Virus record (IMG/VR): IMGVR_UViG_3300044701_001823
Location: 1-25,783 of that record
Origin: a virus
Length of the DNA stretch: 25,783 nucleotides
Reading direction: 5' to 3' (one strand)
The notes under the pieces are model-generated. The model was not told the origin of the DNA. It was given only the letters and a program-made list of their open reading frames with translations, and ran no database searches. The translations under genes and the position numbers were made by a program. Each line of letters begins with the position of its first letter. Positions within the stretch are counted from its first letter, which is position 1. Below, piece after piece: positions 1,676-25,783 of the stretch.

Positions 1676-1686
1676 AGTTCTGATTG

Positions 1687-4600
1687 ATGAGTATAGGTAA
1701 AAGTCCTAATGGTTTAAATCAGATTTCCGCTAGCAAGATTGAATTATTTGTTAGCGGAAGTTCTGTTGTAGGGTTTACATCCGAAAGTGTAAACATAGTT
1801 GGTAAGGTATCTGCATCAGCAGTTCAAACATATGAAATTGGAACTCCACAATCCCAAACTTTGGATATTAAATCCAATACTAAAATTACAGGTTCTCTAA
1901 ATGTATCTTCATCTCTAAATGCAGCAACTGCATTTATAAGTGGAACGGTATCCGCTTCATTTTTTAAAGGAGATGGTTCTCAAATATTTAACATTCCAGC
2001 TTCAGCAATTGGTGATATTGATAGATTAAAATCGGGTTCAGTAGAAGCTGTTCTTTCACCAAATAAAGGTTTAGAAGTTAAAACCGGTGTAACTGTAAAA
2101 GATTTCTTAATTGTAACGGGTTCATCTCAACTCAAAGGTAATGTAAGAGCTGAAGATGGAGTTGCTGTAACTGGAAGTTTGGGAGTTTCTGGAAACGCTA
2201 ATATTGTTGGTAATCTAAATGTAGGTGGAAAGATTACTGCAACTGAAATTCACACAACTTACATTTCATCATCGGTATTATTTTCATCTGGTTCAAACAA
2301 ATTAGGTGATAATGTATTAGATATTCAACAAATTACTGGTTCTTTAAGAATTAGTGGTAGTGTATTTGTTGATGGAAACACAATTCCAACGGATGAAACT
2401 ACAAATGAAGTATTGGTAATTAACCAAACTACAGGTAGAATTAGTAGAAGATTTGCAGCTGCAACTTCTGGTACATCTGGTACATCGGGTAGTAGTGGTT
2501 CTTCTGGTTCAAGCGGAAGTTCTGGTAGTGGTGGTACAAGCGGTAGTGGTGGAACATCTGGTTCAGGTGGTACAAGCGGAACATCTGGTTCTGGTGGTAC
2601 ATCTGGTAGTGGAGGTACTTCTGGCTCAAGCGGTAGTAGTGGTACTTCTGGTAGTGGGGGTTCTTCTGGTACTTCTGGTAGTGGAGGTTCAAGCGGAACA
2701 AGCGGAAGTGGTGGTTCATCTGGTACAACGGGTACTGGTGGTACTTCTGGTAGTGGTGGAACCTCTGGTTCGGGTGGTTCATCTGGAACAACTGGTTCAG
2801 CAGGTACGAGCGGAAGTGGTGGAACTTCAGGTAGTGGTGGTACAAGTGGAACTGGTGGTTCTGCTGGTACAAGCGGTAGTGGTGGAACCTCTGGTTCTAC
2901 TGGAACCGCTGGTTCATCTGGTAGTGGTGGAACATCTGGAACTGGTGGTACAAGCGGAAGTGGTGGAACCTCTGGTAGTGGCGGTACATCTGGTATAACT
3001 GGTGCTGGTGGTACTGCTGGTACAAGCGGTAGTGGGGGTACGAGCGGAACTTCTGGTTCGGGTGGTACTTCTGGAACCTCTGGTTCGGGTGGTACTTCGG
3101 GTGTAAGTGGAGCTGGTGGTTCGGTTGGTACATCTGGTACTTCAGGTAGTGGTGGTACAAGCGGAACATCTGGTTCTGGTGGTACATCTGGTAGTGGTGG
3201 TACATCTGGTAGTGGTGGTACTTCGGGTACATCATCAACCGCAGGTACGGGTGGTACGGCTGGTACTTCGGGTAGTGGTGGTACAAGCGGAACTTCTGGT
3301 TCAGGTGGTACTTCTGGTACAAATGGAACCGCTGGTAGTGGAGGTACGACTGGTTCTGCTGGTACATCTGGTAGTGGTGGTACGACTGGTTCTGCTGGTA
3401 CATCTGGTAGTGGCGGTACTTCAGCAACCGCAGGTAGTGGTGGTACTTCGGGAACTGGAGGAACCTCCGGAACTGGTGGTTCTTCGGGTACAAGAGGAAC
3501 CGCTGGTAGTGGTGGTACAAGTGGAACTGGTGGTACATCGGGCACTGGGGGGACATCTGGTAGTGGGGGTTCTTCGGGTACAGCAGGAACCGCTGGTAGT
3601 GGTGGTACTTCGGGTACATCTGGTAGTGGAGGAACTTCAGGTACTTCTGGTAGTGGTGGTACATCGGGTAGTGGTGGTACATCTGGTACATCTGGTTTAT
3701 TATCTCTTACTGGAACAACCGATAATGGTGTAATTACTCTTAATGGAACTGCTCCAAACGCAACTGTTGAGCAAAATCTTACTTTCAATGGAACTTTATT
3801 GACAGTAACTGGTAATGCAACCATTACTGGTGATTTGACCGTAAGTGGAACTACAACATATATTAATACAACAACTCTTAATATTGGTGATAACATCATC
3901 ACCCTAAATGCGGATGTAACTGGAACACCATCTCAAAATGCTGGTATTGAAATTGAAAGAGGAACTTCCGCAAATGTTTCATTCTATTGGAATGAATCAA
4001 CCGATAGATGGTATGCGGATAACACATTGGAAGTAAATGGTAATGTAATTTTAAGTGGTACAATTGATACGGGTCAAGGTGCTACTGAAGTTTACCTAAT
4101 GAACCAAAACATTAGAACCACAGACAATGTTCAATTTAGTACTGTTAATGCATCAAACTTTAGAGATGGAACTGGTACATATAATGTAAACTTAGGTAGT
4201 GGTGGTTCGGAAGGTAGAGGTTTAGTTGCGGGTTATAGTGGTGGCTCATATGGTGGTATTGGTTACAACATCAGACATACTGGAACTGGTGCAACTTATA
4301 CATCACCATTGGGAGATACTGCAACATATTTGTTATTTAATCAAGGATTTACTTTTTACAATGATGGTGGTACAACCGCTGGTAGAACCACATCTCTTAC
4401 TCAAATAGGTAGATTAGATAATGTAGGTACGTTTACAATTCCTGGTAATTTAGTAGCAGCTCAAGTTAATACTGGACAAGGTTTGACAGAGGTTTATTTA
4501 ATGGACCAAAATGTTCGTACAACTGATGGTGTAACCTTCGCAACAGTAAACACTGGGCAGGGTGCTAATGAGTTGTACGCTATGAACCAAAATGTTAGAA

Positions 4601-7600
4601 CTACCGATAATGTAACATTTGCTAATATAACAGGTAACAACTTTATATTACCACAAAATCCAGTTGGAACAACTTATGGTAATGGTGTATCAACTACACC
4701 ATCATATATGATTTCTCAAACTGTTGGTGATAACGATGGTTGGAGATTGTATGGTGAAACATCTACAACTAATGCCGTTAGAATGGTATTTGAATTGGTT
4801 GATGATATTGAAACTGCATTTACGGACCAATGGGTATTCAGAAATAAACAAACATATTCATCTTATACGGCTAGAAACGAATTCCAAATTTCTGGTGATG
4901 GTGATGCGCAGGCTCGTTCATCAATGAGAGCACCAATTTTCTATGATTCAGCGGATACAAACTATTATATTGATGCTAACTCAAATTCAAGATTAGTAAA
5001 TCTTGGTTTGGGTGGTGTAACTCCTGATTTGAGATTAAGTGTGAGTGGTGATATCCATATGAGTGGATACATCTATCAAGGTGGAACTGCTGGTGTTGTT
5101 AATAGTTGGGGTTCAAGAACTTTGGTAAGTAGTGGTAACTATGTATCAAATGCTCGTTCTTTCCGATTTGATAACGTAGGATATGGTTCAACTTGGGCAT
5201 TAGATATAAACTCTAGCGGAAATGTTATAGCTAGTGTTGATATGAGAGCTCCAATCTTTTATGACCAAAACAATACTGGATATTATTTAGACCCAAATGG
5301 TACATCAAATCTAGTTAATGCTGACTTTAACGGTACTGTAACTTTAAGAAGTGGTAATGAATTAAGATTTTATACATCTGCAGGAAGTTTAAGAGGATAT
5401 ATACAGGCAACTGATACGGATGATAATCACTTAATAATTGCAACCTCTGGTGGTGAAGATATTGTATTTAAAGATGGTGGAGTTGCTGGTAGTGTTAATA
5501 TGGTTATTAGAGGTAATGGTACTGTTCAGGCATATGATGACTTTAGAGCACCAATTTTCTACGATTCCGCAGATACTGGATATTATGCAAACTTAAATGG
5601 ATTCTCACAACAAAGATGGCTTCGTTTATTAGGTGATTGGGCTTCAAGTGGAGTACATTCAGAAACATTAACAATCAGAGGAACATATCCATCCATTACT
5701 TTAAGAGCAACAAATGGTTCTCAACCTGTGTGGTTATTCCACAACGATGCTGGTTCAACTTTATACTTCTACAACCAACAGGGTTCGGTAGATGGTGAAT
5801 CTTGGGATTGGAGAGGATATGTAAATAATAATGGTACGGTTGGTGCAAGAACTGATATGAGAGCACCAATTTATTATGATTCTGCTGATACTGGGTATTA
5901 TGTAGACCTTAATACAACTGGAACTGCTGGTAGATTTAGAGGAGAAATTCTTATAGGTCCAAATACTTCTGGAAGGTATACTAGAATTGGTGGAAATGGC
6001 GGTGCAACCGATGAGGCAACACTATCATCATCAAATGGAAACTTACACATTGATAGTAAAATGGGTAATGGTTTATATTTAAACCACTATTCCAATGGAG
6101 ATATCTATATGAATAATGGTGGTGGATATGCATTCTCATATACTTCATTAAGAGCGCCAATTTTCTACAACTATTCTGATACAGCATATTATTTAGATGC
6201 GGATTCATATTCACGTCTTAATAGAATAGTATTAAACCAAGCAAGAGTTGATTCAAGTAGATACCCAATTGGACATACCGATGTGGGTGAGGCAATATTT
6301 GAGTTTGACCCAACTTGGACAAATGACCAACTTCAAGCATACTTTAATAGTGGTAACGTAAGTTGGGTGGCTGATTCATCTGCACCTGGTGGATATGCGA
6401 TATCTATTGCTGGTGCTGTAAACGTAGGTGGTGTTTATGGTAGTGGTTTCCCATACATAGCGGTTGACCAAGACGATGTATTCTATATGGAGGTTTGGAT
6501 AAAGAGTGTATCTGGAACAAACACCCACTATATGGGTTCTATTGATTTTAACCACAACTTTAGTTCATTGGGTGGTAACCCTGGTTCATTTGGTTATTGG
6601 GTAATGTCAAACTCAAATCCTGGCAGTAGCTGGACAAAATATAGTGGATATATTGGTGGATTTGGTAACTCAACGGGTCAATTTGAAACTGGAACTAAAT
6701 ATTGGACTCCACAAGCACTATTCAACTACACTGGTGGTGGAACATCATACATTAGTGGTTGGAAGGTAATTAAAGTAAACGTACCTGGTAATAGAACATT
6801 CAGAGGTAATGTAACGGCACCTATCTACTACGATTCAAACCAAACTTACTTTGGTGATTTTGGTTCAGAAATCAGAATGCCATACGCTAATGGTGGGACA
6901 ATGAGATTCAGAACCAATACCCATTGGGATTCTCAATCTGGTATTGATTTGATTGGCGGAGCTGGTGAATTCAGAATGAGTTCGGATAGTGGTAACTTAA
7001 ACCTAAGAATAGATGGTTGGATTATAGGATATGATTATGTTCAATCATTAGGGGCAGTTTATGGTACAATTTACTATGACCAAAATGATACATCATACTA
7101 CGGAGATTTTAATTCACAAAGTAGATTAAATACTTTAAGAACAGCAGGATATGTTGTAGTTGGTGGAACATTTGAAAACAATGCATATAATTCAACTACT
7201 GGTGCACGATTAATGTTTGGTGGTGGAGATGGTGATGCTCAAAGTAATTACTATATCGGAACCAATCTTAATAACTATAATGGTAATTACAACAAATTAG
7301 ACCTTCGTTGGCACACCGGTATCCGTATGGGTGCTCAACCTTCATATGGTGGTATCCGTATTTTTAATAATGAAGATTTAGATTCTCGTATTGCATCATT
7401 TGGTGAAACAGATGCAAACGTAAGAATTGATAATATATTGTATGTATTTGGTGATGCAAGAGCACCAATTTTCTATGATTATAACGATACAACTTATAGA
7501 GTTGACCCTAATGGTAATTCAACATTAGTAAACACATTTGCTAGTAGATACTTTACTCTTTACAATAACTTTGGTGATACGATAAACAACGCACCTTGGT

Positions 7601-10600
7601 ATGGATTAGGTGGTTCAAATATTGGCGGACCATTTGGTGGACTAATGGTTCAGGTTGCTGGGTATTATGGTTTAAGATTACGTTCAGCAAATGTTATCCT
7701 TGAATTAGATAGTCCAAACTATTCTACTAGTTGGGCATGGTTTAGTGCACCTGTTGCTGTAAACAATCAAATAAGAGCTCATTCATTCTATGATTATAAC
7801 GATACTGCATATTATTTAGACCCTAACAGTACTTCGGTATTAAACTACACACGTCTTAGAAACTTATATGATTGGGAAGAGAGAAGATATACTTCTCCTC
7901 AAGGTGGTACATACACAACTTCTACATCTTCTATAACCGGAGCAATACAAATTTTCTTACCAGCAGATAGAAGACGTTCATACACTATGTTGAGATTAAC
8001 GGTTAAAGTTTATGAATATAATACTGGTAATTCTCATACATTTAATGTTGGTGGATACAACTATGGTGATGGACAATGGTATAATGTATTTGCAACTCAA
8101 TTAACCGATGGTGGTAAAGGTCAATTACTTGTTAGATTTGGTGATAATGGAAGTAGACAGTGGATTACCATTGGTGAAGCCGGTACGGGATGGACTTACC
8201 CACAAGTTCACATCACCGATGTTCAAGTTGGATATAGTGGATTTTCTACAAACTGGGGACAGGATTGGGTAGTTGACTTTGGTAGTATACCTGGTGGTCA
8301 AAACCAATCAAGAAGTGCATCATTAATATTGACTAGTAATAATGCTAGTAATTTTGCATTTCCAATGTATGCTACTATTTACTATGATGCAAACAATACG
8401 GCATATTATGGTGATTTTGCATCAACATCTCGTATAAACGCCATTGTTTATGATAATTTATATTGGGCAGGTGACCAAACTTATGGTTTTATAGGTAGAA
8501 ATGTATATGCTGATACTGTAAATGGTAGAGGTGGTGACCCATTGGAATTAAACTACTATGATGGTGGTGATGTTTACATCGGCCCCGGTGGTGGTAATAA
8601 AAATTTAAGAGCTAATCTTTACTATGATTATGCTGATACTGGATATTATGTAGACCCTAACTCAACTACACAACTTCATTATGTATTGGCAAATAACTGG
8701 TTTAGAGCACAAAATGATACCGGATTTTATTTCCAAACATATGGATATGGAATTTGGTCAGCTCACTCTGCTGGTAATGGGTATGGTAATGTTGCAACTT
8801 ATGGAACTGGTAGAAATGGTTGGAGTGGTTATGGTATAGGTTCTCGTTGGGTATTAATGAGTACCGGTGGTGATAACATTGGTATTCACGATAATAACCG
8901 AACTTGGATGTATTATTGGGATGGTGGATATCACCGATTCAATTATGGATACGTTCAGGCCGAAGGTTCAATGAGAGCACCTTTATTCTATGATTCAAAT
9001 GATACTAACTACTATGTAGACCCGACTGGAAACTCCCGTTTATCTCATGGTAGATTTACTGGTTCTGGTGGTTACTACTCATTATTGTTAGGACCTGATA
9101 CTCTTTCAACTAATGGTTCAACATCGGTTTATCCTGATTCAGACCGATATGGTTTAGTTCTAAACGCACCATACTATCCACACCTATATATCAACGCATA
9201 TGCGGATAATGGTAACACAACACATGGTGCTGTATTATCAATGACAGGTAACTTAACTTCAGGTGGATATAGAAGATTTGTAATGGGTATTGCAAACCGA
9301 AATCCAAATGAGATGTCATTTGGTTGGCATGATAATAACTATAATCCTCACTATGGAGTTGGTATTAACTGGTCTTATCCAGCATCTGTATGGTACGATA
9401 CTTCACACAACTGGTACACCAGAGGTAGTGTTTATACCTATCAAGTTTATGATAGAGATGATACATCATATTATGTAAATCCACAAGGAACATCAGTTCT
9501 TAACTACCTTTACACTCGTAGAATTGAATTCTTCTACCCTGGTGGTGATTCTGGTTTGGGAACTCAGGCATATGCAATCTATCAAGAACAAGGTGGTTGG
9601 TCATATCCATATCCCGACCTTCGTATTGCATACCACGTTGGTATTAAGTTAGGTGCAAACTCATCATATCAAGGTATCCGATTCTATACGGATTATGATA
9701 TGAGTGGGCAGGTTATGTCTGTAAACAATGGTTCTGACCCATTGGGTGGTGGAAACGTATATGTAAACAGTTCATTACAGGCAGGTTCATCTTTAAGAGC
9801 ACCAATCTTCTACGATTCAAATGATACTGGATATTTTGCAAATCCAAATGGACGTTCTCGTTTAGTAGAGATTGATTATGGTGATGGTTCATACTACTTC
9901 AGAGGTGGTTCTTGGGGTTGGAGACACCAAACTCCAAGTGGATACATTGAATTCGGACCTGCTAACTCATCACACGCTCACATCTATACTGACCGTTCAA
10001 ACTTCTACTACAACGTAGATGATTCTTACCTAAATGGTAGAAGAATCATTATGGAAAACCGTTGGGTTGGAAATACATACTACGGAACAGGTGGTGATGT
10101 TTACGCAACCATTTGGTATGATGCAAACAATAGTGGATACTATTCAGACCCTGCATCAACCTCTCGTTTGAATGCAATTTCCGCAAACAATATATACATC
10201 AACCCAGGTTATATGTTATATGGTGATCCTGGTGGATGGACTGGAGAATACTATAAAATACAATGGCATTCATCTCACCTATACGCTCAAGTATATGGTA
10301 ATGGATACTTCATTATGAGGTATGGTTCTGATGGATTAGAATCCCATCAGTTCGCAAGGGATGGAAACTATTGGAACCGATATATGGGTTGGATGAGTAA
10401 CTACATCAACCAAAATGTCAGAACGGATGCTGGACCTACTTTCCAAGAAGTTTATACAAATGGGTGGTTTAGAAACAACAATAACAACCAAGGATTATAC
10501 AATCAGGCAAATGGAAACCACTGGTCTTCGGATGCAACGTATTGGAAAGCGGGTAATAACAATTCTGGTGCTGGTGGTATTCAACTGAGATACCAACATG

Positions 10601-12117
10601 AAGGTGCATTAAAAGGATATGTTTATTGGGATGGTAGTGGATTTGGATTACTCAACTCATCGGGTAACTGGCAACTTCGTATGGATCCTGGTAATGGAAA
10701 TATGGAGTTTTATCGTGTTACTTATCTGAACGATTCAAGAGCATACATTTGGTACGATAGAGATGATACGAATTGGTATTCCGACCCTAATGCTAATTCT
10801 AACTTTGCAAGATTTACTCAAAGAACCCATGCTTCAATGAATAGGGGTTACCATTGGATTACTCAAAGAGGTGATTACACTGGTGATGTAAACTATTGGA
10901 CTGGTACTTTTGGATGGGGAACATCTGCTGGAACATGGGCAAATGCTTGGAAAGCTGGTTTTTCTGGTTGGGATATTTGGGGAGGTGGTACTGACCACCC
11001 ACAAGGTGGTGGATATGTTCACGCTCAAGGTATCGTATCCGGTCAACACTACGCAACTTCCGATGGCGGTGCCGCATATGGTTGGATGATGGTAGGTGCT
11101 CACGATGCTGGAAACCGTTGGTGGTTGAGAGGTAAGTGGGGAGGAACTACTCGTCCTTGGGTTGAAATGATTACTACCGATAACATTGGTTCACAAGATG
11201 TAAACACATCTCAGTTTTTAAGACAATTTAATGTTGTTTATGGTGATAACTGGAATGATGTTTACACTGCTAGCGTATTAAGATTTGGACAAGGACACAA
11301 CATTAGTGGAGCAAACGGACCGCAAGCAATAGGTGCATACACATATGGTTCATACATGTCATTCAGATTTTTGGGAAGTTCAATGTTCCAATTCTGGATG
11401 CCTGAAAACTCATTCAATGGTGAACGTACTGGTGCCATCCACTACCGAAGTGGTTGGAACGGAAGCTGGAGTAACTGGTATAGATTACTTTGGTTAAGGC
11501 CAGACCATACCGATGGTAATGGTAACTATATGGGTGATGCATCCTATACTTCGGGTGGAGCAACCACTGGACATAGAGTTGATTCTGGAACTTATTATAA
11601 CGGACCAACGAGTGCATATTTAGAACTTCACCCACAATCTGATAACTGGGCAACTACTGCGTATAGATTTAGAGCATATTCAGCGGATGCACTTGGTTCT
11701 TGGTTATACTTTGAAAGATACAGTGTAAATGCTGGGCAGCAAATAATGGGATTTGTAGATAGAAATACCCAAAATCTATATTGGTATGGAAGTATAACTG
11801 CAAACTACTCCGATATCCGATTAAAGAAAAACATCTCAATAATCAAAAACCCAATTGAAAAACTTTGGGGATTGCATGGTGTTCATTTTGAGTGGGTTCC
11901 TAATAAGGAAGCAAACAACGAAAGAGATTACAAAGATGTTGGTTTAATAGCACAAGAAGTTCAAAAAGTTCTTCCTGAAGCTATAAGACCTTTCCCTAAC
12001 GGATATTTGAGTGTAAATTATGATGCAGTTGTGGCATTGTTAGTTGAAACAGTTAAACAGCAGCAGATACTTATAGACAATTTAACTCAAAGAATTGAAA
12101 ATTTAGAAAATAACTAA
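1687..12117 (+). CDS. Giant tail fibre protein with collagen-like region and C-terminal S74 intramolecular chaperone
   Basis: 3476 residues from ATG 1687; an in-frame TTG one codon earlier is a less likely start. Residues 1-260 are beta-rich GSL.VSG.. segments typical of fibre shafts. Residues 262-670 are an uninterrupted Gly-X-Y collagen-like tract (GTSGSG, GSSG, GTAG) without proline. From about 790 come three LM(N/D)QN(I/V)RTTD repeats. Residues 1080-3043 carry about 16 copies of RAPIFYDxxDTxYYxDPN. Near 3240 a knob-like segment (GAIHYRSGWNGSWSNWYRL) resembles pyocin-knob domains. The C-terminus has the S74 signature SDIRLKKNI (S3375, K3380), then VGLIAQEVQKVLPEAI and a VNYDAVVALL helix, ending in a coiled coil. 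In S74 proteins the Ser/Lys dyad cleaves just before the Ser after trimer folding, which here would release about 102 residues. Role: receptor binding at the tail. Confidence 0.95.
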   Translation: MSIGKSPNGLNQISASKIELFVSGSSVVGFTSESVNIVGKVSASAVQTYEIGTPQSQTLDIKSNTKITGSLNVSSSLNAATAFISGTVSASFFKGDGSQIFNIPASAIGDIDRLKSGSVEAVLSPNKGLEVKTGVTVKDFLIVTGSSQLKGNVRAEDGVAVTGSLGVSGNANIVGNLNVGGKITATEIHTTYISSSVLFSSGSNKLGDNVLDIQQITGSLRISGSVFVDGNTIPTDETTNEVLVINQTTGRISRRFAAATSGTSGTSGSSGSSGSSGSSGSGGTSGSGGTSGSGGTSGTSGSGGTSGSGGTSGSSGSSGTSGSGGSSGTSGSGGSSGTSGSGGSSGTTGTGGTSGSGGTSGSGGSSGTTGSAGTSGSGGTSGSGGTSGTGGSAGTSGSGGTSGSTGTAGSSGSGGTSGTGGTSGSGGTSGSGGTSGITGAGGTAGTSGSGGTSGTSGSGGTSGTSGSGGTSGVSGAGGSVGTSGTSGSGGTSGTSGSGGTSGSGGTSGSGGTSGTSSTAGTGGTAGTSGSGGTSGTSGSGGTSGTNGTAGSGGTTGSAGTSGSGGTTGSAGTSGSGGTSATAGSGGTSGTGGTSGTGGSSGTRGTAGSGGTSGTGGTSGTGGTSGSGGSSGTAGTAGSGGTSGTSGSGGTSGTSGSGGTSGSGGTSGTSGLLSLTGTTDNGVITLNGTAPNATVEQNLTFNGTLLTVTGNATITGDLTVSGTTTYINTTTLNIGDNIITLNADVTGTPSQNAGIEIERGTSANVSFYWNESTDRWYADNTLEVNGNVILSGTIDTGQGATEVYLMNQNIRTTDNVQFSTVNASNFRDGTGTYNVNLGSGGSEGRGLVAGYSGGSYGGIGYNIRHTGTGATYTSPLGDTATYLLFNQGFTFYNDGGTTAGRTTSLTQIGRLDNVGTFTIPGNLVAAQVNTGQGLTEVYLMDQNVRTTDGVTFATVNTGQGANELYAMNQNVRTTDNVTFANITGNNFILPQNPVGTTYGNGVSTTPSYMISQTVGDNDGWRLYGETSTTNAVRMVFELVDDIETAFTDQWVFRNKQTYSSYTARNEFQISGDGDAQARSSMRAPIFYDSADTNYYIDANSNSRLVNLGLGGVTPDLRLSVSGDIHMSGYIYQGGTAGVVNSWGSRTLVSSGNYVSNARSFRFDNVGYGSTWALDINSSGNVIASVDMRAPIFYDQNNTGYYLDPNGTSNLVNADFNGTVTLRSGNELRFYTSAGSLRGYIQATDTDDNHLIIATSGGEDIVFKDGGVAGSVNMVIRGNGTVQAYDDFRAPIFYDSADTGYYANLNGFSQQRWLRLLGDWASSGVHSETLTIRGTYPSITLRATNGSQPVWLFHNDAGSTLYFYNQQGSVDGESWDWRGYVNNNGTVGARTDMRAPIYYDSADTGYYVDLNTTGTAGRFRGEILIGPNTSGRYTRIGGNGGATDEATLSSSNGNLHIDSKMGNGLYLNHYSNGDIYMNNGGGYAFSYTSLRAPIFYNYSDTAYYLDADSYSRLNRIVLNQARVDSSRYPIGHTDVGEAIFEFDPTWTNDQLQAYFNSGNVSWVADSSAPGGYAISIAGAVNVGGVYGSGFPYIAVDQDDVFYMEVWIKSVSGTNTHYMGSIDFNHNFSSLGGNPGSFGYWVMSNSNPGSSWTKYSGYIGGFGNSTGQFETGTKYWTPQALFNYTGGGTSYISGWKVIKVNVPGNRTFRGNVTAPIYYDSNQTYFGDFGSEIRMPYANGGTMRFRTNTHWDSQSGIDLIGGAGEFRMSSDSGNLNLRIDGWIIGYDYVQSLGAVYGTIYYDQNDTSYYGDFNSQSRLNTLRTAGYVVVGGTFENNAYNSTTGARLMFGGGDGDAQSNYYIGTNLNNYNGNYNKLDLRWHTGIRMGAQPSYGGIRIFNNEDLDSRIASFGETDANVRIDNILYVFGDARAPIFYDYNDTTYRVDPNGNSTLVNTFASRYFTLYNNFGDTINNAPWYGLGGSNIGGPFGGLMVQVAGYYGLRLRSANVILELDSPNYSTSWAWFSAPVAVNNQIRAHSFYDYNDTAYYLDPNSTSVLNYTRLRNLYDWEERRYTSPQGGTYTTSTSSITGAIQIFLPADRRRSYTMLRLTVKVYEYNTGNSHTFNVGGYNYGDGQWYNVFATQLTDGGKGQLLVRFGDNGSRQWITIGEAGTGWTYPQVHITDVQVGYSGFSTNWGQDWVVDFGSIPGGQNQSRSASLILTSNNASNFAFPMYATIYYDANNTAYYGDFASTSRINAIVYDNLYWAGDQTYGFIGRNVYADTVNGRGGDPLELNYYDGGDVYIGPGGGNKNLRANLYYDYADTGYYVDPNSTTQLHYVLANNWFRAQNDTGFYFQTYGYGIWSAHSAGNGYGNVATYGTGRNGWSGYGIGSRWVLMSTGGDNIGIHDNNRTWMYYWDGGYHRFNYGYVQAEGSMRAPLFYDSNDTNYYVDPTGNSRLSHGRFTGSGGYYSLLLGPDTLSTNGSTSVYPDSDRYGLVLNAPYYPHLYINAYADNGNTTHGAVLSMTGNLTSGGYRRFVMGIANRNPNEMSFGWHDNNYNPHYGVGINWSYPASVWYDTSHNWYTRGSVYTYQVYDRDDTSYYVNPQGTSVLNYLYTRRIEFFYPGGDSGLGTQAYAIYQEQGGWSYPYPDLRIAYHVGIKLGANSSYQGIRFYTDYDMSGQVMSVNNGSDPLGGGNVYVNSSLQAGSSLRAPIFYDSNDTGYFANPNGRSRLVEIDYGDGSYYFRGGSWGWRHQTPSGYIEFGPANSSHAHIYTDRSNFYYNVDDSYLNGRRIIMENRWVGNTYYGTGGDVYATIWYDANNSGYYSDPASTSRLNAISANNIYINPGYMLYGDPGGWTGEYYKIQWHSSHLYAQVYGNGYFIMRYGSDGLESHQFARDGNYWNRYMGWMSNYINQNVRTDAGPTFQEVYTNGWFRNNNNNQGLYNQANGNHWSSDATYWKAGNNNSGAGGIQLRYQHEGALKGYVYWDGSGFGLLNSSGNWQLRMDPGNGNMEFYRVTYLNDSRAYIWYDRDDTNWYSDPNANSNFARFTQRTHASMNRGYHWITQRGDYTGDVNYWTGTFGWGTSAGTWANAWKAGFSGWDIWGGGTDHPQGGGYVHAQGIVSGQHYATSDGGAAYGWMMVGAHDAGNRWWLRGKWGGTTRPWVEMITTDNIGSQDVNTSQFLRQFNVVYGDNWNDVYTASVLRFGQGHNISGANGPQAIGAYTYGSYMSFRFLGSSMFQFWMPENSFNGERTGAIHYRSGWNGSWSNWYRLLWLRPDHTDGNGNYMGDASYTSGGATTGHRVDSGTYYNGPTSAYLELHPQSDNWATTAYRFRAYSADALGSWLYFERYSVNAGQQIMGFVDRNTQNLYWYGSITANYSDIRLKKNISIIKNPIEKLWGLHGVHFEWVPNKEANNERDYKDVGLIAQEVQKVLPEAIRPFPNGYLSVNYDAVVALLVETVKQQQILIDNLTQRIENLENN
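2470..3696 (+). repeat. Collagen-like Gly-X-Y coding repeat, about 136 triplets
   Basis: 1.2 kb of 9- and 18-base near-repeats built from GGT-(ACA/ACT/AGT)-(TCT/TCG/GGT) encode 409 residues with Gly at every third position. X and Y are almost only Ser, Thr, Ala and Gly, and proline is absent. Synonymous codons vary freely from copy to copy (GGTACATCT, GGTACTTCG, GGAACCTCT, GGTACAAGC). The protein pattern is therefore kept while the DNA repeats have diverged. The tract makes long artefactual open frames on both strands. Confidence 0.95.
4924..10815 (+). repeat. About 16 dispersed copies of a RAPIFYDxxDTxYYxDPN fibre motif
   Basis: A roughly 25-residue motif recurs every 60-200 residues. Examples are RAPIFYDSADTNYYIDANS (from 4927), RAPIFYDQNNTGYYLDPNG (5245), RAPIYYDSADTGYYVDLN (about 5860), APIYYDSNQTYFGDF (about 6817), TIYYDQNDTSYYGDF (about 7066), RAPLFYDSNDTNYYVDPTG (about 8973) and AYIWYDRDDTNWYSDPN (about 10741). 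Each is followed by S.L(N/V) and a stretch of variable beta-rich sequence. The pattern suggests modular shaft or blade units joined by conserved linkers, as seen in other phage fibres. Confidence 0.85.
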
Positions 12118-22550: not shown

Positions 22551-24806
22551 ATGAATATATTTCCTGCTTTTTCAAATATTCATCCATATGTAACTAGCAA
22601 AATAAATTCAAGGTTTGAAAACTTAATTCAAACTTCTGGATTAAATGCTTGGGTTAGTATTGCATCTGCCAAATCTCCTGGTCTGGCTTTGTATTCAAAT
22701 AGAGATGGTGGATTCGCTTCACACTATGGTTCACAAACTACTGCTGGTATAACAGGTGAAACTTGGGGTGGTGGTGATGTTGGTGGCGGTGATGAAGGAT
22801 ACAAACCATCACCATATGTATCAGCTATGGAAATTGAAGAAAATGTTGGTTCAATATCCAGAAAAGCATCATTTACAATTGTAGCTCATACTCAACAACA
22901 ATGTAATGTATTAATTAATCACTTTTTGGAACCTGGTTACACTGTGTTCCTACAATGGGGATGGAATACTCCATTAGCAAATGGAAAATTGTTAAAACCC
23001 GGAGATGGTTTAAGTGCTGATAGTGTAGCTAATTATGCTGATTTTGCAAATACATCAACCGCAAGAAGTGCAACTGATGGTGAATATGATAACTATTTAG
23101 GATTTATAACTGGTGGTGGTGTTAGTAGAGTTGGTGATAAATGGGAAATTAATGTAAAATTAACTGGATTTACCGAACTACCTGCTTACTTAAACGCAGC
23201 GGATACTGCAACAAAAGATTCGGCTGTTGCAGAAAGAGGTGGTAAGTATTTTCCACAATCTCAAATTGAAAATGAAACATCATTGGATAAGAAACGATTT
23301 ATGATGATGTTTAATGAACTACCATCAAACCGAAGAACAAACGAAGTAGCAAAAAGGTTGTTGGAAGAACCTTATATGTTAGATGCTAAAAACTACATAA
23401 ATTTTGATATGTCAGTTGTGGAAGAATTGACAAATAAAACCGCAGGTAGTTGGTTAGCTCAAGGTTTATCATTTTTAGGAATTGAAACCGATACATCCGC
23501 AAATGTAGATGGAAAAGAAGTTGATTTAGTTGCTGGAACTAAATTAGTTCATGAAGAAAAATTTATCCGATTTGGTGCCCTTATGAAAATATTCAATTCA
23601 TTGGGAGCTGAAGGTTATAAGTTAAAAAATGGAAAAATAATAAAATTTAGTGTAGATACTGAAGATGTTGCAATATCAGCATTTGAAAGAATGTTCTCAT
23701 TGGATAGAACTAAATTATTTATTCCAAATTCAAGAACTCCAAATTTTTCAATATCATTTGCATTAGAAAACACAACACCACAAACTGATTTTAGAAAAAA
23801 TAAAGATAATACTGTTTACTATAATGGTGGTGAAGTTAGATTCCCAAAGAGAACATCATTGGTATATAAAGATAATGAATCTGGGGTTAGTGAGGGTATT
23901 AGTAGAGCAGCTGGAGAATGGGGATATTTAGATGATTTGTACATTAATTTTGATTTTGCAAAATCAATTATAGAAACTAAAAACTTTTCCATAAAAGATG
24001 CTATGTATCAGTTACTAAATGGAATATCGGCAGCCGCAGGTGGACAATGGGACTTTCAATTGCAAGAAAGTAATAAAAATGGAAATCTACAATTAAGGGT
24101 TGAGGATTTTAATATGGTGACCACTGGAAATAAACCATCGGTATCCGCTGTATTTAACATATCTGGAACTCAATCACCATTTATTGATAACTCTTTGGAT
24201 TTGGATATTGGTGGTGCTAAAATGAACCAAATAATTGGTGAACGATTAAGTGCTAAATTAAACTCATCATCTGGTGTATCTGAATCGGGTAACATTGGAA
24301 CTGATGGCGTTGATATGGTAATGGTAGAAGTTTCGGCAAGACAACCAGCCGAAGAAACAACAGGAACTCCACAAACTGATTCTGCTGTAGAATCTAATCC
24401 GGATGAAGAAGAAGAATTAAGAAAGAAAAACTTTGACTTATTTATGGAGAAAGTTGGAATTTATCCAAAAGTTGAATTAACGAAAGATAATATAGATTCT
24501 AGTGTAGATTTTGATGAGTTGGTTTATATTGGTGCATTAAATGATTTGGAAGTTTTTGAAACTCAAAAATTGACAGAAGAAAAAAGAACTGATAAGCAAG
24601 GTGTTGGTGCACTTACAAATATTAAATTTTCATTTAGTGTGCATGGTGTAAGTGGTATTAAGAGAGGTGATAAGTTTAGAATTAATGGACTACCATCTGA
24701 ATATTCAAATAAAGGATTTTTTCAGGTTATGGATGTAAAACATACTATTGATGGAATGTTGTGGAAAACCGAAGTAACTGGTGGTTGGAGGCCATTTAGA
24801 GTATGA
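22551..24806 (+). CDS. Baseplate hub protein (gp27/gpD-like)
   Basis: 751 residues, ATG 22551. The ATG at 22544 is in another frame. Residues about 75-140 hold SPYVSAMEIEENVGSISRKASFTIVAHTQQQCN and then HFLEPGYTVFLQWGWNTP, the start of a hub tube-like domain (strand, helix, 'G..V.L.WGW'). Residues 260-560 include EEKFIRFGALMKIFNSLG and a helix-rich insertion. The C-terminus (about 650-751) has LTNIKFSFSVHGVSGIKRGDKFRINGLPSEYSNKGFFQVMDVKHTIDGMLWKTEVTGGWRP. The pattern G.SGI..GD.F.I..LP..Y...G.F.V..V.H.I....W.T.V corresponds to the final domain of phage hub proteins. The product should form the trimeric hub at the tube tip. No lysozyme domain is seen in it. The next gene overlaps its stop by ATGA. 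Confidence 0.82.
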   Translation: MNIFPAFSNIHPYVTSKINSRFENLIQTSGLNAWVSIASAKSPGLALYSNRDGGFASHYGSQTTAGITGETWGGGDVGGGDEGYKPSPYVSAMEIEENVGSISRKASFTIVAHTQQQCNVLINHFLEPGYTVFLQWGWNTPLANGKLLKPGDGLSADSVANYADFANTSTARSATDGEYDNYLGFITGGGVSRVGDKWEINVKLTGFTELPAYLNAADTATKDSAVAERGGKYFPQSQIENETSLDKKRFMMMFNELPSNRRTNEVAKRLLEEPYMLDAKNYINFDMSVVEELTNKTAGSWLAQGLSFLGIETDTSANVDGKEVDLVAGTKLVHEEKFIRFGALMKIFNSLGAEGYKLKNGKIIKFSVDTEDVAISAFERMFSLDRTKLFIPNSRTPNFSISFALENTTPQTDFRKNKDNTVYYNGGEVRFPKRTSLVYKDNESGVSEGISRAAGEWGYLDDLYINFDFAKSIIETKNFSIKDAMYQLLNGISAAAGGQWDFQLQESNKNGNLQLRVEDFNMVTTGNKPSVSAVFNISGTQSPFIDNSLDLDIGGAKMNQIIGERLSAKLNSSSGVSESGNIGTDGVDMVMVEVSARQPAEETTGTPQTDSAVESNPDEEEELRKKNFDLFMEKVGIYPKVELTKDNIDSSVDFDELVYIGALNDLEVFETQKLTEEKRTDKQGVGALTNIKFSFSVHGVSGIKRGDKFRINGLPSEYSNKGFFQVMDVKHTIDGMLWKTEVTGGWRPFRV

Positions 24807-25156
24807 GTATAGAAAGATACAACCGATTAAAAGTGTTGGATAGAAGTTTTGTTCCTGTTAAAACAAAAACATTTATTCCATCTCCAACTGATGATGATTA
24901 CAAAAGAGGATACATCACACGATACTTTGTTCAAAAGACAAACGATAAGAACGCTCCTATAATTGAAGTTAATTCAAAAGGATACTCAAATTATAATAAT
25001 AATCCATTTTATACCACATCATCTTTGGATTGGGTTGTTGTAGGTGAGGTTAGTTTAGTTGAAGAATCAAATTTAAAATCTATTAGATTTGCATCTCAAA
25101 AGTTAAAAGCACTTACATTCTATCTACAAAATTTGACTCAATTCCTAAAAAAATAA
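24803..25156 (+). CDS. Hypothetical phage protein, probable baseplate-associated
   Basis: 117 residues. The ATG at 24803 overlaps the previous TGA (ATGA), so translation is probably coupled to the hub protein. The sequence is strand-rich: RYNRLKVLDRSFVPVKTKTFIPSPTDDDYKRGYITRYFVQKTND, then FYTTSSLDWVVVGEV, and it ends with a helix ALTFYLQNLTQFLKK. No enzymatic or membrane features; the family was not recognised. As the last gene of the baseplate unit and stoichiometrically tied to the hub by overlap, a structural role is likely but unproven. Its stop codon directly adjoins the promoter of the tmRNA gene. Confidence 0.75.
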   Translation: MSIERYNRLKVLDRSFVPVKTKTFIPSPTDDDYKRGYITRYFVQKTNDKNAPIIEVNSKGYSNYNNNPFYTTSSLDWVVVGEVSLVEESNLKSIRFASQKLKALTFYLQNLTQFLKK

Positions 25157-25188
25157 TTTGGTAGTTCCAAATATTTATCGTATATTTG
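25157..25188 (+). promoter_or_regulatory. Bacteroidota-type promoter of the tmRNA gene
   Basis: -33 element TTTG at 25157-25160 and -7 element TATATTTG at 25181-25188, with 20 bases between. This fits the Bacteroidota consensus TTG-N(17-23)-TAnnTTTG. Transcription would start about 10 bases before the mature tmRNA 5' end at 25207, leaving a short leader for RNase P to remove. The TTTG begins right after the upstream stop codon. The spacer contains ATATTTATC, close to the late motif. Confidence 0.8.
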
Positions 25189-25206: not shown

Positions 25207-25583
25207 GGGGTAGACATGGAATTGATTGGCAGTTGCATGATAATGAGTGATACAAGTAGGGTTAGATGGAAATCCTTAAAAACCTATCAAAACAACAAAC
25301 GGCAGAGAAATCTCCACTTTCACCTTTGAGGATGCTATGGCATTCGTAGGTGCTGAAGAATACGCCTTAGCAGCGTAACTTCTCCCCGCACTCATCGTGG
25401 GGTGTTAACAAGAATGAGAACTATGGGTGGAAAACCAACTGAACCCTAAAACCGAGTTGGGACATTGATGATACTACAATGTAAAGGAGTATCTATTTTG
25501 TCCGTTAAGAAAAATGGACTAAACTTGTGAGGGAGCTGTTTGATTGGCTGAGCAAGACGTGGGTTCGACTCCCACCTACTCCA
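25207..25583 (+). ncRNA. ssrA: Transfer-messenger RNA (tmRNA), phage-encoded
   Basis: About 377 nt. The 5' end GGGGTAG pairs with CTACTCC (25576-25582) as a 7-bp acceptor stem with the G3-U70 pair that marks alanine acceptors and discriminator A25583; CCA is not encoded (ACA follows). The T arm is GTGGG, loop TTCGACT, CCCAC. A D-like region GGAATTGATTGG lies near the 5' end. PK1 spans 25258-25288: AGGGTT pairs with AAATCCT-side bases 25271-25276, and loop bases GATGG (25265-25269) pair with CC(T)ATC 25283-25288. After the tag stop come a hairpin (CCCCGC/GTGGGG, 25384-25402), PK2 (GGGT/ACCC and CCAACT/AGTTGG, 25425-25460), PK3 (CATTG/CAATG and GATACT/AGTATC, 25463-25493) and a possible weaker PK4. 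It rescues stalled ribosomes with SmpB. All parts look intact. Confidence 0.96.
25301..25378 (+). other. tmRNA tag reading frame, 25 codons plus TAA
   Basis: The resume codon is probably GGC at 25301, nt 95 of the RNA (nt 90 in E. coli), 12 bases after PK1 and preceded by AACAACAAAC. The frame then runs 25 codons without a stop to TAA 25376. The peptide begins GREISTFTF, continues through EDAMAFVGA and ends EEYALAA. The end matches Bacteroidota tags of the GE..YALAA kind and keeps the LAA degron. If a later GGT at 25349 (nt 143) were the start, the tag would be the usual 9 residues, but no pseudoknot lies at the right distance before it. Confidence 0.75.
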
Positions 25584-25587
25584 CAAA

Positions 25588-25623: not shown

Positions 25624-25783
25624 ATGGTTATAGTAGAATCCGATAAAGAGGTTGGAGAATTCCTCCAGCTATGGAACACCGAATCATCGGTTGTAATACC
25701 CATTTGGGTTGATTTGGATAAACACCCACTAAACAACGAATTGGCGTTCTTATACGTTAAATTTGGGGGTAGTGAGTATGTTA
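25624..25783 (+). CDS. N-terminus of a protein, possibly 3'-5' exonuclease/DNA polymerase (3' partial)
   Basis: 53 codons are visible from ATG 25624 to the window end. The sequence starts MVIVESDKEVGEFLQLW and continues VVIPIWVDLDKHPLNNELAFLYVKFGGSEYV. A strand with an acidic pair (WVDLD), then HPLNNE and a second strand (LAFLYVKF), resembles the beginning of the exonuclease-like domain of family A DNA polymerases in Bacteroidota phages. The resemblance is from memory and only the first strands are visible, so it is tentative. It has its own host-type promoter and the mRNA would have almost no leader, unlike the late genes. This fits an early or middle replication gene and puts the tmRNA at the border of the structural module. 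Confidence 0.7.
   Translation, partial: MVIVESDKEVGEFLQLWNTESSVVIPIWVDLDKHPLNNELAFLYVKFGGSEYV

Follow-up and report, generated by a model that had tools for sequence, protein, structure and literature searches.

When a phage tmRNA encodes a proteolysis tag far longer than those of its probable hosts, are the extra residues translated, and what keeps them? The question is raised by a tmRNA gene near one end of the window, our term for the whole 25,783-nucleotide stretch of viral DNA that was analysed (record IMGVR_UViG_3300044701_001823). A preliminary description, made from the window alone, had proposed that translation resumes at the glycine codon GGC 25301 and that about 16 extra residues precede the YALAA end; it suggested that this insert could alter handling by an adaptor or protease, lengthen the unfolded handle for ClpXP or mark peptides released in phage infection. 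Phage tmRNAs have been reported before, in mycobacteriophages Bxz1, Wildcat and others and in Bacillus phage G (PMC4131195); like these, the tmRNAs described here are carried by dsDNA phages, although the hosts differ. As far as its relevant passages go, the 2025 tmRNA database paper, whose scope is bacteria, archaea, organelles and RefSeq viruses, describes no long conserved viral tags, and 10 residues is the tag length that it reports as commonest (PMC11915505).

The window encodes a standard one-piece tmRNA

ARAGORN and the Rfam RF00023 covariance model both detect a tmRNA in the window, a standard one-piece ssrA gene at 25207..25586. The covariance-model match, a check suggested in the preliminary description, scores 66.2 bits (E 5.5e-24), above the gathering score of 47, and on sequence grounds the RNA is a tmRNA by family membership. 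The gene, its parts, its promoter and its two neighbours described below all lie on the plus strand. The acceptor contains G3-U70, the alanine identity pair, which is conserved as G-U in 35 of 36 aligned sequences and is A-U in the remaining one; a T arm is present, and the 3' end is CAA, with CCA not encoded. PK1, placed from the sequence and the alignment of 36 sequences, spans 25257..25288 (start approximate), and 12 bases separate its last base, C25288, from the putative resume codon at 25301-25303. From this codon a frame of 25 codons, GREISTFTFEDAMAFVGAEEYALAA, extends to a TAA stop at 25376-25378 (25301..25378 in all), assigned from the open frame, the homologous frame in relatives and dN/dS; its YALAA end carries the hydrophobic -AA terminus seen in tmRNA tags. 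PK2, located by inspection of the sequence, follows immediately 3' of the stop at approximately 25382..25418. By these assignments no part of a working tmRNA is missing, the alanine identity pair included, and the coordinates and tag letters given previously are correct. The tRNA-like end, PK1, tag frame with an -AA end, PK2 and T arm are shared with bacterial one-piece tmRNAs (RF00023); in contrast to these, the phage tags are 23–26 residues long, contain an STxTFEDxMxFVG core and have a predicted hairpin at either end of the tag frame.

Upstream of the gene lies a candidate promoter at 25157..25188, consisting of TTTG (25157-25160), a 20-base spacer and TAtaTTTG (25181-25188), a motif that we take to be the Bacteroidota promoter form. 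This motif preceded 16 of 47 representative long-tag tmRNAs compared to 14 of 940 random 72-base stretches. The tmRNA is flanked by a tail-module gene on one side and a DNA polymerase A-like gene on the other. The upstream open reading frame at 24803..25156 encodes a 117-aa protein, function unassigned, and neighbour clustering found a related gene upstream of the tmRNA in 45 loci. Downstream, the polymerase-like gene begins at 25625 and the window ends inside it (25625..25783); it is whole in contig L002 (9074-10348), and its match to Pfam PF00476 is weak (E 1.3e-4, under the curated cut-off). Searches of the window with PHROGs revealed sheath, tube, baseplate and wedge genes and a Pfam search revealed a T4 baseplate protein; the window belongs to a contractile-tailed, T4-like phage, and its host is probably a member of the Bacteroidota. 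A 3477-residue tail-fibre-like protein is also encoded in the window (1684-12117); it contains a long stretch of GTSGSGGTSG-type repeats, and its C terminus looks, by eye, like an intramolecular chaperone. Elsewhere, a gene with a signal-peptide-like start, DNA/RNA endonuclease G-like by inspection, lies near the tmRNA in 32 loci, at a median of 1.8 kb downstream.

Translation of the tag very probably resumes before the extra residues

For the window, ARAGORN begins the tag at 25352 and reports AEEYALAA. If this call were right, translation would resume at or near GGT 25349 or GCT 25352, the RNA would encode a short host-like tag only and the sequence upstream would be untranslated. Relatives of the window tmRNA make this extremely improbable. 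Homologous open frames under purifying selection extend upstream of 25352 in these RNAs, and ARAGORN's own call is the long form for 101 of 125 distinct long-tag tmRNAs among the relatives. Moreover, a resume codon at 25352 would stand 63 bases after PK1, compared to 12 for GGC. We rejected the short tag because of the conservation upstream of its start, and on these comparisons the 25352 start is a product of the ARAGORN heuristic.

The homologous long tag was found in 293 loci (114 distinct sequences, with some loci representing overlapping or repeated records), gathered from viral contigs using the neighbouring proteins, the PK1 sequence and the tag as queries. The tag was itself a selection criterion in several of these searches, and a fair test is therefore provided by 14 tmRNAs detected by the covariance model alone in records picked by sheath or neighbouring protein, and all 14 contain a homologous long open frame. 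A stop or frameshift within the extra segment, which the preliminary description had named as evidence against its reading along with a late start at GGT 25349, was seen in none of the homologues examined. The long tag of the window tmRNA is very well supported by these sequence comparisons; the exact resume codon, GGC 25301, is assigned from spacing and homology, and an error of one codon is possible.

Two features of other long-tag tmRNAs were recorded in passing. In a subgroup (L115, L117, L119, L121 and others) the tag called by ARAGORN is false (VNKPEHYLSAP, for example) and lies past the true long one, and in L183 (c1166-1615) and L192 (c197-670) roughly 80–100 extra bases precede the tag frame.

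The tag peptide is under purifying selection

The tag consensus in relatives is xVELSTxTFEDAMAFVGADYAVAA, with lengths of 23–26 residues and a YALAA/YAVAA-type end in almost all of them. In the window, the conserved peptide core comprises 13 codons at 25316..25354, TFTFEDAMAFVGA by frame. For 76 distinct cores, dN/dS was 0.215 in the tag frame, compared to 1.05 and 1.64 in the two alternative frames, which are interrupted by stops in 69 and 27 of the 76 cores, respectively; mean pairwise identity was 77% for the tag, the most conserved part of the RNA, and 46–70% elsewhere. The sequences behind these dN/dS and identity values are related, making the values descriptive, but the frames differ greatly from one another. 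Core residue D7 (Ser = 1) is invariant and is encoded by GAT in 39 cores and GAC in 37, and M9 is present in 74 of 76. A dN/dS value of 0.21 in frame and values above 1 in the other frames argue that the peptide itself is selected. A profile search of the PDB with the tag gave a best E of 1.7, as expected by chance.

Predicted hairpins occur at the start and the end of the tag frame

Some of the extra sequence is predicted to form an RNA hairpin, a feature absent from the preliminary description. In the window this 5' hairpin, GG(C)AGA-GAAA-UCUCC, lies at the resume codon (25301..25315), and the tag start is predicted to fold in all 53 distinct sequences with enough flank. The mean energy is −4.0 kcal/mol and every sequence reaches −2.5 kcal/mol or lower, a level attained at the tag start by 7% of mononucleotide shuffles and 31% of host sequences. 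Within the VELST/EELSS class, 99% of pairing in the stem is kept, with compensatory changes on both sides (U-A, A-U and C-G at one pair, and A-U and U-A at the next) and a covariation of 0.280 compared to 0.050 after shuffling.

The window fold places a 3' hairpin, UACGC-CUUAGCA-GCGUA, over the YALAA codons and stop (25361..25377). Most relatives instead have GCWG-UAG-CWGC, a stem to which the window is an exception. The wobble bases of the two Ala codons before the stop covary, being T-A in 58 and A-T in 45 of 114 sequences, and this covariation is an RNA signal because both changes are synonymous. A Fisher test on the A/T cells gave p 2e-27, a value inflated by relatedness. We found no comparable Ala wobble covariation in the sampled host tmRNAs. 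A conserved hairpin mid-tag was also sought; pairing there is weak, and the one that the window folds is not common to all relatives. Folding predictions and covariation together support two hairpins inside the tag frame.

Could the extra sequence be retained for its RNA structure, for example for loop size or the hairpins, with the peptide as a passenger? Having two covarying hairpins inside the frame fits this explanation, as do changes in the first residues, V/T and E/S, that follow base pairing. The middle codons, however, have weak conserved pairing and yet vary mostly synonymously, as the GAT/GAC alternation at D7 and the in-frame dN/dS illustrate. This explanation is already weakened, and we regard it as unlikely.

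The long tag is confined to viruses in the collections searched

Searches with the tag alignment confirmed homologous tags of 23–26 residues in at least 276 viral contigs and in none of about 85,000 bacterial and archaeal species, each represented by one genome; the peptide pattern differed slightly between the two scans. A host origin of the long tag was rejected, as the bacterial and archaeal scan produced 48 pattern matches and no relatives. In the collections searched, the long tag is restricted to viruses; prophages in unsampled strains, or unsampled lineages, could carry it too. From 75 loci in sampled Bacteroidota genomes we obtained 72 tmRNA calls, nearly all with tags of 8–11 residues; the few longer calls had 14, 15 and 19 residues, and the 14-residue call is likely false. 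The window tag resembles those of Bacteroidota hosts, such as GENNYALAA and DNNYSYRLAA, in having its first Gly after AAAC and a YALAA end, but differs in its length of 25 residues. Sequence comparison indicates that the long tag is a trait of a large virus-only family, and of the in-frame insert proposed earlier the extra residues are upheld by the relatives, but the idea of an insertion private to this phage is not.

Blastn of the tmRNA region against known phage records gave short chance matches only, and tblastn of the consensus tag against 50,697 phage records at E 10 gave no match, in a search whose sensitivity is limited for 24 residues. Judged by the sheath, the nearest named phages are Flavobacterium phage immuto and Microcystis phage Mel-JY01, neither of which contained a tmRNA above the cut-off. 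The parts of the literature searched held no report of such long, conserved tags. A long, conserved, virus-only tag with predicted hairpins at both ends of the frame appears neither in the literature that we reached nor in annotated phage records.

Other tmRNA matches came to light during these searches. An uncultured phage of 484 kb contains two matches, a full tmRNA-like one whose sequence does not include the conserved tag core (L511; LR756508.1, 92434-92880) and one of 112 bases, possibly a reduced form (L513; 414804-414915). A metagenome bin named Limnohabitans (L417) contains a Bacteroidota-type tmRNA tag, probably through a binning error.

Discussion

We lean slightly towards a working phage tmRNA that would use host SmpB and append a two-part degron, with a docking segment in the middle and a ClpX-type end, while hairpins would keep the longer loop compact. 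The RNA would be charged with alanine and, together with host SmpB, would take over ribosomes stalled on broken mRNA, which should abound during infection. Resumption at GGC 25301 would then add Ala plus 25 residues, compared to roughly 9 for the host's version. The final residues, YALAA here and YAVAA in relatives, would act as what we take to be a ClpX-type degron. STxTFEDxMxFVG would form the other element and most likely serves for docking, with a conserved host or phage protein binding there to deliver the tagged product to the protease or prioritise it. The two in-frame hairpins probably hold the mRNA-like loop compact, with the resume codon in place, until the ribosome unwinds them.

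The decoy alternative holds that the RNA binds alanine, SmpB or ribosomes and blocks host trans-translation, adding no tag. A phage form with the tRNA-like part only (DS6A), described in a passage of PMC11915505, inhibits tmRNA when expressed in E. coli, as a decoy would. We nevertheless consider this very unlikely for the window RNA, which is complete in PK1, PK2, open tag and stop and whose tag peptide is under strong selection.

Which protein might dock on the middle of the tag? SspB docks on the first residues of the E. coli ssrA tag. The degron proposed here shares with that system the idea of an adaptor-binding part joined to a ClpX-binding end, but its docking sequence is different, and an SspB homologue was found in 0 of 32 large related viral records. 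SmpB was likewise found in 0 of these 32 records, and host SmpB would therefore be needed. ClpP is encoded in 3 of the 32, as a ClpP-type protease (E about 1e-28) in L245, L268 and L328 (records G060, G066 and G076, respectively); in G060 this gene lies about 4 kb from the long-tag tmRNA. Neighbour clustering of related loci yielded no constant gene partner adjoining the tmRNA. With no SspB, no constant neighbour and ClpP in three records, these searches therefore name no partner for the middle of the tag. A binding partner is still the best explanation that the sequences suggest for the conserved middle, and we infer a docking role for the TFEDxMxFVG segment by analogy.

The tag might instead be more than a degron, its middle inhibiting, titrating or redirecting a host factor (a protease, an adaptor or a defence sensor), or stabilising or relocating the products, to the benefit of the phage. 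Its virus-only distribution is consistent with such a role, as is conservation of the middle in sequence, beyond composition and length, across phages with different gene neighbourhoods. On the other hand, retention of the ClpX-type end in almost all relatives argues for degradation, and there is no known target; we regard this role as possible but rather unlikely. Returning to the two-part degron, we tentatively propose, with less than even confidence, a virus-only tmRNA class in which STxTFEDxMxFVG recruits a protein and, with the ClpX-type end, lets the phage control which truncated proteins are destroyed and how.

These tmRNAs offer a natural case of selection for protein and for RNA structure on the same 75 bases, and a standard annotation tool, ARAGORN, can overlook the true tag in such genes. 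The tag is also a short, defined peptide that can be used to seek its binding partner. Its residue-by-residue conservation in many viruses, together with its absence from the bacterial genomes that were searched, marks the phage RNA as no mere spare copy of the host's. Such conservation says that the tag has a function of its own, which bears on why phages carry tmRNA, and a separate version of this basic cellular clean-up system has probably evolved in viruses.
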